Of a stretch of 64,000 nucleotides of DNA, positions 4,957-63,831 are shown in pieces. Below the pieces are notes generated by a model, which made no database searches, had not been told where the DNA came from, and worked only from the letters and a program-made list of their open reading frames with translations. Positions within the stretch are counted from its first letter, which is position 1, and the number at the start of each line of letters is the position of its first letter. The translations under genes were made by a program, and so were the position numbers. Source of the DNA: Nitrobacteraceae bacterium AZCC 1564 (lineage in GTDB: Bacteria > Pseudomonadota > Alphaproteobacteria > Rhizobiales > Xanthobacteraceae); the NCBI GenBank assembly GCA_036924835.1, contig JBAGRR010000001.1, positions 2,046,001 through 2,110,000 of the forward strand, read 5' to 3'.

Positions 4957-5445
4957 TTATCGTCCGATGCGACCGGGACGCAATTCCAGGCTCTGCACGC
5001 CGCCGGCGACACTCAGGCCGGTCTGCCCCTGGACGCTCAGTGGCTGAAGCGCAAAAGAATTCTGCGAACCGCCGATCATCGCATTGCCGCCAAGGCCGAC
5101 GCCAACCGCAGCGCTGGCACTGACGCCGGCGTAGTTGCCGGAGAGGTCACCCATGCCAAGCTGAACGGTGGGTGAAAACACAGCCCAGGACAAAACGGTC
5201 TCATTGGTGATGCCGATATCGAGACCGACCTTGGTGATCTGCGCAGTATAGAGATCATCTGGGCGACCTTGGGATCTGAACACGCAACCAAGATTGGTGA
5301 CCGAACCGACAACCATTCCGACATTTGGACCGCCGCGGCATTCGAGCACGCCGACCTGTGTGCGGCCCGACTGCGCGAAGGAAGAACCTATCGAAGCTGC
5401 GAGCACGGCTGTAGCAAGACCCAGAAAGGATGAAAGGCGACGCAT
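4957..5445 (-). CDS. Exported DUF992 family protein
   Basis: 162 residues with a signal peptide (MRRLSSFLGLATAVLAASIG, cleavage near SFAQ). The mature protein has the DUF992 signature: 'VGVLECRGGPNVGMVVGS', a Cys pair (VLEC and LGCVF), 'FALQPLSVQGQTG', and a Gly-rich stretch about residues 107-130. DUF992 proteins are small periplasmic or surface beta proteins of Alphaproteobacteria without an assigned function. GGAG lies 7 nt upstream. The next gene on the same strand (5629-6156) is a paralogue, and each has its own terminator, so they are separate transcription units. Confidence 0.88.
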   Translation of the reverse strand: MRRLSSFLGLATAVLAASIGSSFAQSGRTQVGVLECRGGPNVGMVVGSVTNLGCVFRSQGRPDDLYTAQITKVGLDIGITNETVLSWAVFSPTVQLGMGDLSGNYAGVSASAAVGVGLGGNAMIGGSQNSFALQPLSVQGQTGLSVAGGVQSLELRPGRIGR

Positions 5446-9036: not shown

Positions 9037-9203
9037 CCAGTGTGGTGGTTCAGAAGTTCGCCGGATTTTTCCTGCGAGTCCTTCCAGCGAACTTCCGAAC
9101 CTAAACCACACGAGAATCATAGATTTACTAGTGTCCTCTCGAATCCAAAGTCCGCTACGGAGCACGCTGCACGATCAGGTGGACTTTGGATTCGGGACAC
9201 TAG
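9037..9203 (-). repeat. Double-hairpin palindromic element, class A, reverse (copy 3)
   Basis: Arm 2 (9037-9114, CAGTGTGG, stem GGTTCAGAAGTTCG / CGAACTTCCGAACC), linker AATCATAGATTTA, arm 1 (9128-9203, CTAGTGTCC, stem GAATCCAAAGTCCGC with a partly mismatched partner GTGGACTTTGGATTC). It differs from copy 2 at several stem positions, so it is not a recent duplicate of that locus. Confidence 0.88.
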
Positions 9204-34816: not shown

Positions 34817-34985
34817 CTAGTGTCCCGGTTCTAACGTTCGCATCACTTTGCAGCGCTCTCGTTTGCGAACGTTAGAACCAGGAGGGACACTAGCAACTCT
34901 ATGAAGCTAGTGCGCTTTTCGGATTTGACGTTCGTACTGAGGACTCGCCGCAATATTGGTACGAACGTCAAATCCAGCGCACTAG
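34817..34985 (+). repeat. Double-hairpin palindromic element, class B, forward (copy 4)
   Basis: Arm 1 (34817-34893): CTAGTGTCC, stem GGTTCTAACGTTCGCA / TTGCGAACGTTAGAACC, GGACACTAG. Linker CAACTCTATGAAG. Arm 2 (34907-34985): CTAGTGCGC, stem GGATTTGACGTTCGTAC / GTACGAACGTCAAATCC, GCGCACTAG. The arm-2 ends differ from other copies on both sides in a matching way. Confidence 0.92.
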
Positions 34986-39135: not shown

Positions 39136-39302
39136 CTAGTGTCCCGAATCCAAAGTCCGCACTATCGTGCAGCGCGCTCCGCAGCGGAATTTGGATTCGA
39201 GAGGACACTAGTAAATCTATGATTCTAGTGTGGTTCAGGTTCAGAAGTTCGCTGGAAGGACTCGCAGGAAAAATCGGGCGAACTTCTGAACCACCACACT
39301 AG
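39136..39302 (+). repeat. Double-hairpin palindromic element, class A, forward (copy 5)
   Basis: Arm 1 (39136-39211): CTAGTGTCC, stem GAATCCAAAGTCCGC / GCGGAATTTGGATTC, GGACACTAG. Linker TAAATCTATGATT. Arm 2 (39225-39302): CTAGTGTGG, stem GTTCAGAAGTTCGC / GCGAACTTCTGAAC, CCACACTAG. It begins 32 bp after the HD-GYP stop codon and forms, with copy 6, direct repeats around the tautomerase gene. Confidence 0.93.
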
Positions 39303-39760: not shown

Positions 39761-39928
39761 CTAGTGTCCTGAATCCAAAGTTCGCCTCATCGTGCAGCAC
39801 GTTCCGAAGCGAACTTTGGATTCGAAAGGACACTAGCAAATTTATGATTCTAGTGTGGTTGAAGTTCAGAAGTTCGCCGGAAGTGACTTGCAGGAAAAAA
39901 CGAGCGAACTTCTGAACCACCACACTAG
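39761..39928 (+). repeat. Double-hairpin palindromic element, class A, forward (copy 6)
   Basis: Arm 1 (39761-39836): CTAGTGTCC, stem GAATCCAAAGTTCGC / GCGAACTTTGGATTC, GGACACTAG. Linker CAAATTTATGATT. Arm 2 (39850-39928): CTAGTGTGG, stem TTCAGAAGTTCGC / GCGAACTTCTGAA, CCACACTAG. It is the cleanest copy, squeezed between the tautomerase stop (6 bp) and the convergent YdeI-type gene stop (2 bp). Confidence 0.95.
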
Positions 39929-48340: not shown

Positions 48341-48763
48341 GTGAACATCCCGACGATTGTGGTCACGGATTCGCCGAGCAGCGCGGATCGCGATGCCATC
48401 ACTCAGGCCTTGGTCGCATTCAACGACAAGGCAGCAGGCCCATCGGGCTTTCAGCCGCTTGCTGTTCTGGTCCAGGACGCTGACGGCAACACCGTCGGCG
48501 GCTTATGGGGCAAGACGAGCTACGACTGGCTTATCGTCGAACTGTTCGTCGTGCCGGAGCAATTCAGAGGACAGAACCTCGGCTCCAGCATCCTATCCCG
48601 CGCAGAGGACGCCGCTCGCGAACGCGGCTGCATTGGTGCCTGGCTCGACACCTATGAATTCCAGGCACTCGAGTTCTACAAAAAGCAGGGCTACGAACTC
48701 TTCGGAACGGTCGAAGATCACCCGCGTGGATCGCACCGCTTCTTCGTCAAGAAGCGCTTTTAG
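48341..48763 (+). CDS. GNAT family N-acetyltransferase
   Basis: 140 residues with a GTG start; GAGG lies 5 nt upstream. The acetyl-CoA motif is 'LFVVPEQFRGQNLGSSIL' (RGQNLG), followed by 'ARERGCIGAWLDTYEFQALEFYKKQGYELFGTVED'. The acceptor is unknown. The stop codon TAG is the first TAG of a palindromic element (48761), so the element defines the 3' end. Close relatives may end a few residues differently. Confidence 0.9.
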   Translation: MNIPTIVVTDSPSSADRDAITQALVAFNDKAAGPSGFQPLAVLVQDADGNTVGGLWGKTSYDWLIVELFVVPEQFRGQNLGSSILSRAEDAARERGCIGAWLDTYEFQALEFYKKQGYELFGTVEDHPRGSHRFFVKKRF

Positions 48764-48834
48764 CGTGGTGGTTCAGAAGTTCGCTCGATCTTTCCAGCAA
48801 GTCCTTCCAGCGAACTTCTGAACCACCACACTAG
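48761..48834 (-). repeat. Solo arm 2 of the palindromic element, class A
   Basis: TAGCGTGG then stem GGTTCAGAAGTTCGC / GCGAACTTCTGAACC and CCACACTAG. The internal sequence orientation is that of a reverse copy, but no linker or arm 1 follows (GATAAGCAAAGC instead). It is either a deletion remnant or an independent single-hairpin insertion. The left TAG is the stop codon of the GNAT gene. Confidence 0.9.
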
Positions 48835-53681: not shown

Positions 53682-54007
53682 CTAGTGCGGTAGATCTGAC
53701 GTTCGTATCAGTATTAACCGCTGGTCCATCATACGAACGTCAGATCCAAAACCGCACTAGATTCATATTTTTGCTAGTGTCCCTTAGGTTCCGACATTCG
53801 TAAACAAGCTAGTGTCCCGTCTCCGAATAACCGCCTCATTTGCGGCGCGCTCGCACAGTCATTCGGAGACGGGACACTAGCAGAATCAAAATGCTAGTGT
53901 GGCTTTGTCTCGCAATTGCCGATGAGAAACCAGCCGCAAGAGAGATCGGCAACTGCGAGACGCCACACTAGCCGCAAACCAAACGAATGTCAGAACCGGG
54001 ACACTAG
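53682..54007 (-). repeat. Double-hairpin palindromic element, class B, reverse, split by another copy (copy 8)
   Basis: Arm 2 (53682-53760): CTAGTGCGG, stem GATCTGACGTTCGTAT / ATACGAACGTCAGATC, CCGCACTAG. Linker ATTCATATTTTTG. Arm 1 begins at 53774 (CTAGTGTCC, stem GGTTCCGACATTCGT) and resumes after the nested class C copy with its partner ACGAATGTCAGAACC and GGACACTAG (54007). Without the insert the element is 163 bp, like the others. Its right end codes for the last residues of the MATE protein. Confidence 0.93.
53809..53971 (+). repeat. Double-hairpin palindromic element, class C, nested (copy 8b)
   Basis: Arm 1 (53809-53880): CTAGTGTCC, stem GTCTCCGAATAACCGC-like / TCATTCGGAGAC, GGACACTAG. 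Linker CAGAATCAAAATG. Arm 2 (53894-53971): CTAGTGTGG, stem GTCTCGCAATTGCCGAT / ATCGGCAACTGCGAGAC, CCACACTAG. It sits in the loop of arm 1 of copy 8, between GTAAACAAG and CCGCAAAC. If the CTAG at one border belongs to the target, the empty site would read AACAAG-CTAG-CCGCAAAC. Confidence 0.95.
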
Positions 54008-55387
54008 CCCGAGTTGATCGCGCCTGATCCAGCGCGCCATCATCACGCAGGCCACCACCGCGAGACCGGTGGCAAGACCGATCCAGACGCCGAGCCCCTC
54101 AAAGCCCATTCTGAATGCGAAGAATAGGCTCATCGGCATTCCGACGCCCCAATACCCGATAGCAGCATAGATCATCGGTACATGCGTATCCTGAAGGCCG
54201 CGCAGCATGCCGGCTCCGACCGCCTGCGCGCCATCCACGATCTGAAACATGGCGGCGCAAAACAGGAACGTTACTGCGGTATTCACCACCGTCATGTTGG
54301 TCGGATCCGCAACATCAATGAAGGCGCTGATCAACACCCGCGGCATGGTCATCATCACCACGCTCATCGTCGCCATGAACATCATGGCGAGCGCGAATGC
54401 GGTCCAGCCCGCGCGGGTGACCGCATCTCGATCCCGCGCACCGTGCGCTCGGCCGACGCGCACGGTAGCCGCCTGGCCAAGACCCATGGGCACCATGAAC
54501 GACGCCGACGCAATCTGAATCGCGATGGAATGCGCGGCGATGGCCGTCGCGCCGAATTGGCCCATCAGAAAAACAGCGGCGTTGAAGACGGTCACCTCGA
54601 ATGCAATCGTGGCTCCGATCGGCAGGCCAAGCCGCCACAGTGCGACAAGACGTGGCCAGTCCGGCCGCCACCAGCGCCCGAACAGATGATAGCGGCGCAG
54701 CCACCTGTTCAGGATCACCACCAGCGCAAGCCCGCAAAACAGAAACGCGTTCGAAAACGAAGTGGCGAGGCCTGATCCCTTCAGCCCGAGCGCCGGCAAA
54801 CCGAAATGGCCGAACACAAGCCCCCAGTTGGCTGCGATGTTGAACAGGATTGCCGTGGCGGTCACGATCAATGCCCAAAGCGGACGCTCCAGTGCCGAGA
54901 CAAAGGCACGCAACACGACGAAACCGAGAAAGGGCAGGAATCCCCATTGCAAATGGCGCACGAACGTTTGTGCATCGGCTGCGAGCTGCGGCTCCTGACC
55001 GAACCAGAGCAGGATCGTCTCACTGTGCCAGAGCACAATCCAGCTTGGCAGCGATATGATCACAGCCGTCCATAATCCCTGCCGAAACGTGCGCCGCACC
55101 TCACGCAGGACATGCTGCTTGCGGCCGAACGCCTCCGCCATCATTGGCGACGTTGCCGTAACGAGGCCGATGGCGAAAATGTGGAGCGCAAAATAGAGAT
55201 TCACGCCGAGCGCCGCCGCTGCCAGCGCGGATGATCCCAACCGGCCGATCATGATGATGTCGGTCGTCGTCAGCGCGATCTGCGCGAGATTGGTGAGAAC
55301 CAGCGGCCAGCCTAGCGACAGCATCGCCCGGAGTTCGCCGAGCCATGCAGCACGCGATAGCGCATTTTGGTGGGGATTAAACAGCAT
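53990..55387 (-). CDS. MATE family multidrug efflux protein
   Basis: 465 residues with 12 membrane helices in two MatE halves. Seen: 'GWPLVLTNLAQIALTTTDIIMIGRLG', 'GLVTATSPMMAEAFGR', and in the second half 'LGLPIGATIAFEVTVFNAAVFLMGQFG' and 'GLGQAATVRVGRAHGARD', the NorM-type pattern. Drug/cation antiport across the inner membrane is the family role. The last five codons (LVSRF) and TGA come from the end of a class B palindromic element (CTAGTGTCC-GGTTCTGA on this strand). Confidence 0.92.
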   Translation of the reverse strand: MLFNPHQNALSRAAWLGELRAMLSLGWPLVLTNLAQIALTTTDIIMIGRLGSSALAAAALGVNLYFALHIFAIGLVTATSPMMAEAFGRKQHVLREVRRTFRQGLWTAVIISLPSWIVLWHSETILLWFGQEPQLAADAQTFVRHLQWGFLPFLGFVVLRAFVSALERPLWALIVTATAILFNIAANWGLVFGHFGLPALGLKGSGLATSFSNAFLFCGLALVVILNRWLRRYHLFGRWWRPDWPRLVALWRLGLPIGATIAFEVTVFNAAVFLMGQFGATAIAAHSIAIQIASASFMVPMGLGQAATVRVGRAHGARDRDAVTRAGWTAFALAMMFMATMSVVMMTMPRVLISAFIDVADPTNMTVVNTAVTFLFCAAMFQIVDGAQAVGAGMLRGLQDTHVPMIYAAIGYWGVGMPMSLFFAFRMGFEGLGVWIGLATGLAVVACVMMARWIRRDQLGLVSRF

Positions 55388-60181: not shown

Positions 60182-60348
60182 CTAGTGTCCCGAATCCAAA
60201 GTCCGCCTCATCGTGCGGCGCGCTCCTTAGCGGACTTCGGATTCGAGAGGACACTAGTAAATATATGATTCTAGTGTGGTTTAGGTTCAGAAGTTCGCTG
60301 GAAGGACTCGCGGGAAAAATCGGGCGAACTTCTGAACCACCACGCTAG
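60182..60348 (+). repeat. Double-hairpin palindromic element, class A, forward (copy 10)
   Basis: Arm 1 (60182-60257): CTAGTGTCC, stem GAATCCAAAGTCCGC / GCGGACTTCGGATTC, GGACACTAG. Linker TAAATATATGATT. Arm 2 (60271-60348): CTAGTGTGG, stem GTTCAGAAGTTCGC / GCGAACTTCTGAAC, CCACGCTAG. It lies 123 bp upstream of uvrC. Confidence 0.93.
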
Positions 60349-63668: not shown

Positions 63669-63831
63669 CTAGTGTCCCGTCTCCGAATAACCGCCCATTT
63701 GCGGCGCGCTCGCACGGTTATTCGGAGACGAGGAACACTAGCAAAATCAACATGCTAGTGTGGCTTTGGCTCAAATTGCCGATAAGAGACTAGCCGCAAG
63801 AAAAATCGGCAATTGCGAGCCGCCACACGAG
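63669..63831 (+). repeat. Double-hairpin palindromic element, class C, forward (copy 9)
   Basis: Arm 1 (63669-63741): CTAGTGTCC, stem GTCTCCGAATAACCGC / GGTTATTCGGAGAC, then GAGGAACACTAG (one extra base in the end). Linker CAAAATCAACATG. Arm 2 (63755-63831): CTAGTGTGG, stem GGCTCAAATTGCCGAT / ATCGGCAATTGCGAGCC, CCACACGAG. It differs from the nested class C copy at scattered positions. Confidence 0.92.

Follow-up and report, generated by a model that had tools for sequence, protein, structure and literature searches.

Complete two-hairpin repeats of the genome of Nitrobacteraceae bacterium AZCC 1564 appear to insert as whole pairs at CTAG, a conclusion that is well supported. One nested copy was analyzed in a stretch of 64,000 nucleotides (contig JBAGRR010000001.1, positions 2,046,001 to 2,110,000; "the window" throughout the paper), where a pair termed class C resides in the loop of a pair termed class B. 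The basic unit of approximately 160 bp carries no gene and consists of a hairpin X, an AT-rich spacer of 12-13 nt and a hairpin Y, with bulges directed inward. The nested locus and the further copies of the window are organized as follows:

53682..54007, no strand: class B pair (hairpin Y, spacer, hairpin X) whose X loop contains a nested class C pair
53682..53760, no strand: class B hairpin Y, with CTAG at both feet and a bulge on the spacer side
53761..53773, no strand: AT-rich spacer of the class B pair, 13 nt
53774..53808, no strand: left half of class B hairpin X as far as the insertion point in the loop, compared with 28 uninterrupted loops
53809..53971, plus strand: inserted class C pair, with border CTAGs at 53809-53812 and 53968-53971
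53809..53880, plus strand: class C hairpin X
53881..53893, plus strand: spacer of the class C pair, 13 nt
53894..53971, plus strand: class C hairpin Y
53972..54007, no strand: right half of class B hairpin X, with CTAG at its end
53990..54007, minus strand: final codons and stop (TGA) of the minus-strand ORF 53990-55387, supplied by the element
1217-1601, 9037-9203, 34817-34985, 39136-39302, 39761-39928, 48760-48834, 60182-60348 and 63669-63831: further double-hairpin copies of several classes in the window

The initial annotation had described a complete class C element (53809-53971) breaking a class B hairpin at 53808, and the sequence reads exactly in this way. The two halves of the B stem (53787-53801 and 53983-53997) are 93% paired (14/15) across a distance of 181 nt. 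Using class B as query, 30 of the 40 listed places were fetched, which provided 29 class B loci besides the window copy (L050-L078). The X loop was uninterrupted in 28 of these 29 loci, the remaining one (L074) being truncated there; the tally includes one locus read by eye (L056). An arrangement shared by all class B copies, which the initial annotation had named as the sign of a fused repeat, was thus not observed. At the insertion point the 28 uninterrupted loops carried CTAG in 14, CTAA in 4 and other 4-mers in 10 cases, some of the latter representing a subclass with a different loop. The insert of the nested copy is flanked by CTAG on either side versus one 4-mer in the uninterrupted loops, and one of its two border CTAGs corresponds to this single 4-mer. 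Consequently, the net gain amounts to 159 bp and the restored B pair to 167 bp, which agrees with a comparison B pair at 782907-783074 (168 bp); the length of 163 bp given initially for the restored class B element had to be corrected. The role of CTAG as border and target was supported and refined to one 4-mer in the empty and two CTAGs in the filled state, with which an element of 163 bp that moves with its ends included and an element of 159 bp are both compatible. The proposed search for an empty site succeeded for the paralogous B loops, which represent the uninterrupted state, while no orthologue of this copy was found.

The pattern CTAGTG-N54-80-CACTAG matched 732 stretches in the AZCC 1564 genome compared to 42 for the backwards pattern, an imperfect control since it holds GATC instead of CTAG. 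A hairpin census of 1.264 Mb of this genome (600001-1400000, the window and 2800001-3200000) yielded 287 hairpins, and in 115 couples of neighbours the spacer measured 10-16 nt, mostly 12-13 nt. The detector employed overlooks some hairpins; in the first 400 kb it identified 77 hairpins versus 5 in the reversed sequence at the census threshold, and 86 versus 16 at a looser threshold. With a stricter rule 16 hairpins were detected in the window. A candidate autonomous unit at 1143-1147 kb was rejected, as its first hairpin has its own partner that was overlooked by the detector. In each of the 9 four-hairpin chains of the census, precisely one CTAG is shared and two spacers are present, and judged from their sequence the chains look like the products expected when a whole pair enters at the foot CTAG of another pair. 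Nesting in the chains was reciprocal, with C found within D and D within C. At a further locus (L408) a D pair is located within a B pair and the CTAG of the B loop was left untouched. Moreover, mixed pairs were observed at three loci of the AZCC 1564 genome (L409, L410, L412), where a class A or C hairpin X comes after a class B hairpin Y and its spacer; an exchange of arms or the partial deletion of a nest would give this appearance.

The same C-in-B nest was present at three loci with unrelated flanks, namely the window copy (L001), L002, where the B hairpin Y is absent beside the nest, and L003, where the left B arm is a hybrid resembling a short deletion. In a tree of 30 of the 40 class C copies listed, the three nested C parts formed one clade (support 0.969). 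Among the same 30 copies, the nested ones were 0.969-0.994 identical to one another and at most 0.934 identical to any other copy. The occurrence of one C clade in unrelated flanks suggests that the nest arose in a single insertion and that the composite spread afterwards. A second composite family, class E within class A with CTAA/TTAG at the junction, was seen at 645600-646060, 674660-675110 and 3006390-3006647, the last copy having the appearance of a deletion-made fusion. The CTAA feet shared by two E copies were rejected as proof of a foot travelling with the element, because both copies represent the same E-in-A arrangement.

Orthologous sites were analyzed using 40 stretches around elements of four related genomes. 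A total of 18 elements were inspected, and 13 with both outer CTAGs were used. Nine genomes were searched with the joined flanks of these elements, and 60 junction-spanning sites were fetched, those omitted being mostly weaker or partial matches. An uninterrupted orthologous site was found in at least one relative for all 13 tested elements, with presence/absence differences in flanks up to 97-99% alike. The 4-mer at the 60 empty sites was CTAG in 19, TTAG in 7, TCAG in 6 and other or gapped in 28 cases, and 8 of the 13 loci had at least one CTAG-bearing empty relative. At one locus (L271) all 4 empty sites carried CTAG in near-identical flanks. A fourteenth site (L255:2703) carried the element in 2 genomes, while the 13 others inspected were uninterrupted and all lacked CTAG at this position; in the closest empty relative, compared by eye, the length equalled the filled flanks plus one 4-mer. 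The element at this site is common to the genomes G013 and G019 and absent from G041 despite 97% likeness to the left flank of G013, for which exchange between species or loss are possible reasons. For polymorphic sites, pairwise alignment provided no usable case and BLAST break points provided one. In the target-duplication comparison one 4-mer in the empty state faced two CTAGs in the filled state, and one outer CTAG could belong to the element itself. The nine four-hairpin chains and the uninterrupted orthologous sites support the initial proposal that the full pair moves as one.

How the pairs are moved is a separate question, for which we lean towards a predicted DDE-type enzyme that acts in trans, integrates the complete pair at CTAG and generates a CTAG on either side. 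A complete two-hairpin repeat would enter an older copy at the loop CTAG present in many uninterrupted copies, and the transposase would make a staggered cut at this CTAG leading to a 4-bp target duplication; we infer both this chemistry and the enzyme. Each copy adds several CTAGs to an otherwise CTAG-poor genome, making the copies probable landing sites for one another, and this would account for nests and chains as well as for composites seemingly spread as units. In the 1.264 Mb analyzed, 479 of 1160 CTAGs were located inside detected hairpins, and outside of them CTAG reached 0.49-0.68 of the Markov expectation. The target behaviour resembles that of MITEs. We are aware of the fact that 41 of the 60 empty sites and 14 of the 28 B loops are not exactly CTAG, which counts against insertion at CTAG. 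Furthermore, the X and Y arms represent inverted repeats related to each other, but their outermost bases differ beyond TG, which is unusual for the ends of DDE elements.

The transposase search covered the profiles PF01797, PF00665 and PF01609, by which a mobiliser of another family may be missed, and no parent insertion sequence was found with them. The target motif of IS481-type (rve) elements is centred on CTAG; a mobiliser of this type was rejected, as the AZCC 1564 genome contains one sub-threshold rve fragment. Two IS5-type DDE matches were obtained in this genome, one of them intact (L246). The latter was rejected as parent, since its ends (TAGCAGGCTGTTGAAGAAGTC) are unrelated to the hairpin ends and no CTAG duplication accompanies it. 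When 0.46 Mb and 91 short stretches were compared, all matches of at least 350 bp came from overlapping stretches of the same place.

The serious alternative, in our view possible though less probable, is that the pairs are REPIN-like units transferred in single-stranded form, with an HUH enzyme recognizing the hairpins and performing the joining at CTAG. Of the two outer CTAGs, one would then have been the target and one would be a cleavage site belonging to the element, and the same one-to-two CTAG pattern is predicted. The inverted two-hairpin build agrees with such a process, the bulges pointing toward the spacer in 97 of 115 pairs (3' side of the first hairpin, 5' side of the second). So does the covariation of the stems: at stem positions 7-9, pairing was observed in 276, 273 and 277 of the 287 hairpins, whereas independence of the two sides would give 138, 86 and 136. 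The pairs were of several types, and related copies enter this count many times; template-switch correction could be another source of this covariation. CTAG was present on both feet in 207 of the 287 hairpins. Where both feet of one hairpin had changed (24 hairpins), they were complementary in 16, versus a mean of 1.35 and a maximum of 7 in shuffles. These covarying feet, which also favour an HUH enzyme, are one outer and one inner foot of the pair, a relation that plain target duplication does not predict, while the two outer feet of a pair agreed in 1 of 4 cases. No YTAA pairs were seen among the outer feet of the 115 pairs. For TnpA-REP and IS200/IS605, the recognition of hairpins and the use of guide tetranucleotides have been described (PMC8266576).

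An HUH enzyme of the Y1 type is opposed by the profile searches. PF01797 (Y1/RAYT) gave no match in the AZCC 1564 genome, a search that a very divergent enzyme could escape, and it was found in 3 of the 29 genomes of the genus and in none of the five hairpin-richest. The Y1 loci of the relatives hold 0-2 CTAGs each. A RAYT was rejected as mobiliser on account of the missing Y1 in AZCC 1564 and the few CTAGs at these loci. In addition, no clear orientation bias was seen among the 40 class C places listed (20 plus, 20 minus) or in the three census segments (XY/YX 25/35, 22/13 and 5/1), which speaks against HUH transfer, though a nearly symmetric element may show none. Along the AZCC 1564 contig the GC skew reverses its sign near 2.88 Mb, from the 2.8 to the 2.9 Mb bin, probably marking a replication origin or terminus.

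It appears improbable that the repeats are kept mainly for a function in the cell, as terminators or mRNA 3' ends, and spread by recombination or local copying. Such a function would fit the strong fold of 53682-54007 as single-stranded DNA (z -15.2; equalled by 0 of 100 shuffles), in which B hairpin Y stands beside a B hairpin X that encloses both C hairpins in its loop. It would also fit the covarying stems, for which template-switch correction could do likewise, and the position of the nested copy between convergent ORFs in the ORF table. The minus-strand ORF 53990-55387, MATE-like when read by eye, obtains its stop codon from the element, and the ends of its relatives differ by eye. However, the presence/absence at orthologous sites and the whole-pair nests show insertion, which function alone leaves unexplained, and the Rfam search of the window found no family at gathering score. 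Least credible of all, and very improbable, is a fused compound repeat that never was an insertion: the same arrangement recurs at three loci, but nearly all other B loops are uninterrupted, C copies outside of nests are frequent and nests of other classes are located at different CTAGs.

Beyond AZCC 1564, the exact-foot pattern was found in 28 of the 29 genomes of the genus with 1 to 732 copies, one genome having none. In 20 of the 29 the count did not exceed that of the imperfect backwards control, so that presence can be deduced from the counts by themselves only for the richer genomes; in several hairpin-poor genomes the listed matches still read as the same hairpins. Plasmids of Roseibium and Labrenzia carry a full pair of the same build (L224, about 5002-5168). 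This pair occupies one conserved intergenic site in 9 of 9 Roseibium/Labrenzia records covering the region, and therefore the plasmids provide no empty site. The plasmid L224 and eight further Roseibium/Labrenzia plasmids share the architecture with a different lower stem, and class C and class B queries gave no match to the plasmids. A similar hairpin was present in 1 of 80 named loci, a Stappia locus. Phage records searched with the class A pair gave no match, and viral contigs yielded 0 matches to one hairpin pattern and 4 to another. The four viral contigs (L421, L422, L423 and L424; GC 0.60-0.68) carry related CTAG-footed hairpins, and by eye no transposase was recognised in them. Viral contigs are a possible route between species.

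The double hairpins share properties with several known repeats. Like REPINs with their RAYT/TnpA-REP they are short, non-coding and present in hundreds of copies as an inverted palindrome pair with a spacer, and further common features are the doublet as replicating unit, bulged stems and compensatory changes (PMC3116915, PMC8266576). The inverted palindrome doublet as a unit was indeed recovered here in 115 pairs and in whole-pair insertions. In contrast to the GTAG foot described for REPINs (PMC3116915, PMC8266576), CTAG is located on both sides of each hairpin, the arms are hairpins with a length of about 75 nt, one CTAG is gained at empty sites and no Y1 transposase was detected in the AZCC 1564 genome. 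As short non-coding mobile units (~160 bp; presence/absence at 13 of 13 orthologous sites) the pairs also resemble MITEs. CTAG/YTAA duplications were reported for the active MITEPsy1, and the IS5-family MITEs resemble our units in their size of about 100-160 bp and the lack of genes; their 4-bp duplication, with CTAG or YTAA as target there (PMC3189936), would correspond to the one predicted here. Unlike MITEPsy1 (PMC3189936), the repeats form two separate hairpins with different ends by eye, and no parent IS was found. With respect to IS5-family MITEs, defined by a CTAG/YTAR target and IS5-like ends, they share CTAG and lack the ends.

The alphaproteobacterial CGTC REPs are likewise palindromic dimers said to be without a dedicated transposase; they possess a CGTC tag and stems of 8-9 bp, compared to CTAG feet and longer stems here, and the word CTAG is absent from the main text of their description (PMC3733652). 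The PATEs and SMRs of Haloquadratum are similar in being transposase-free and in small repeats entering palindromes of other elements; they differ in that PATEs are described without terminal inverted repeats and SMR/PATE insertions without target duplication (PMC3119063). Br-REP1 and Br-REP2 of Bradyrhizobium are intergenic hairpin repeats of related bacteria, but the printed consensus shows no CTAG feet and, by eye, no likeness to the arms described here (PMC5082802). A description of CTAG-footed double hairpins was not found in the open-licence literature as far as it was accessible, which is weak evidence of novelty.

Taken more broadly, we tentatively consider these repeats as genus-wide mobile double hairpins, also occurring in Stappiaceae, for which CTAG may serve as target, border and foot, which may be moved by a non-Y1 enzyme that reads folded DNA, and of which nested composites may act as new mobile units. 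The nests constitute a relative-age record of repeat mobility, and the empty site is directly provided by each host copy that lacks an insert. AZCC 1564, in which 732 intact hairpin matches were found along with few transposase genes in three profile searches and no detected Y1, makes the mover of transposase-less palindromes testable. Finally, mutual targeting, with the copies supplying a large share of the CTAGs, would offer small repeats a simple way of developing into composite mobile units.
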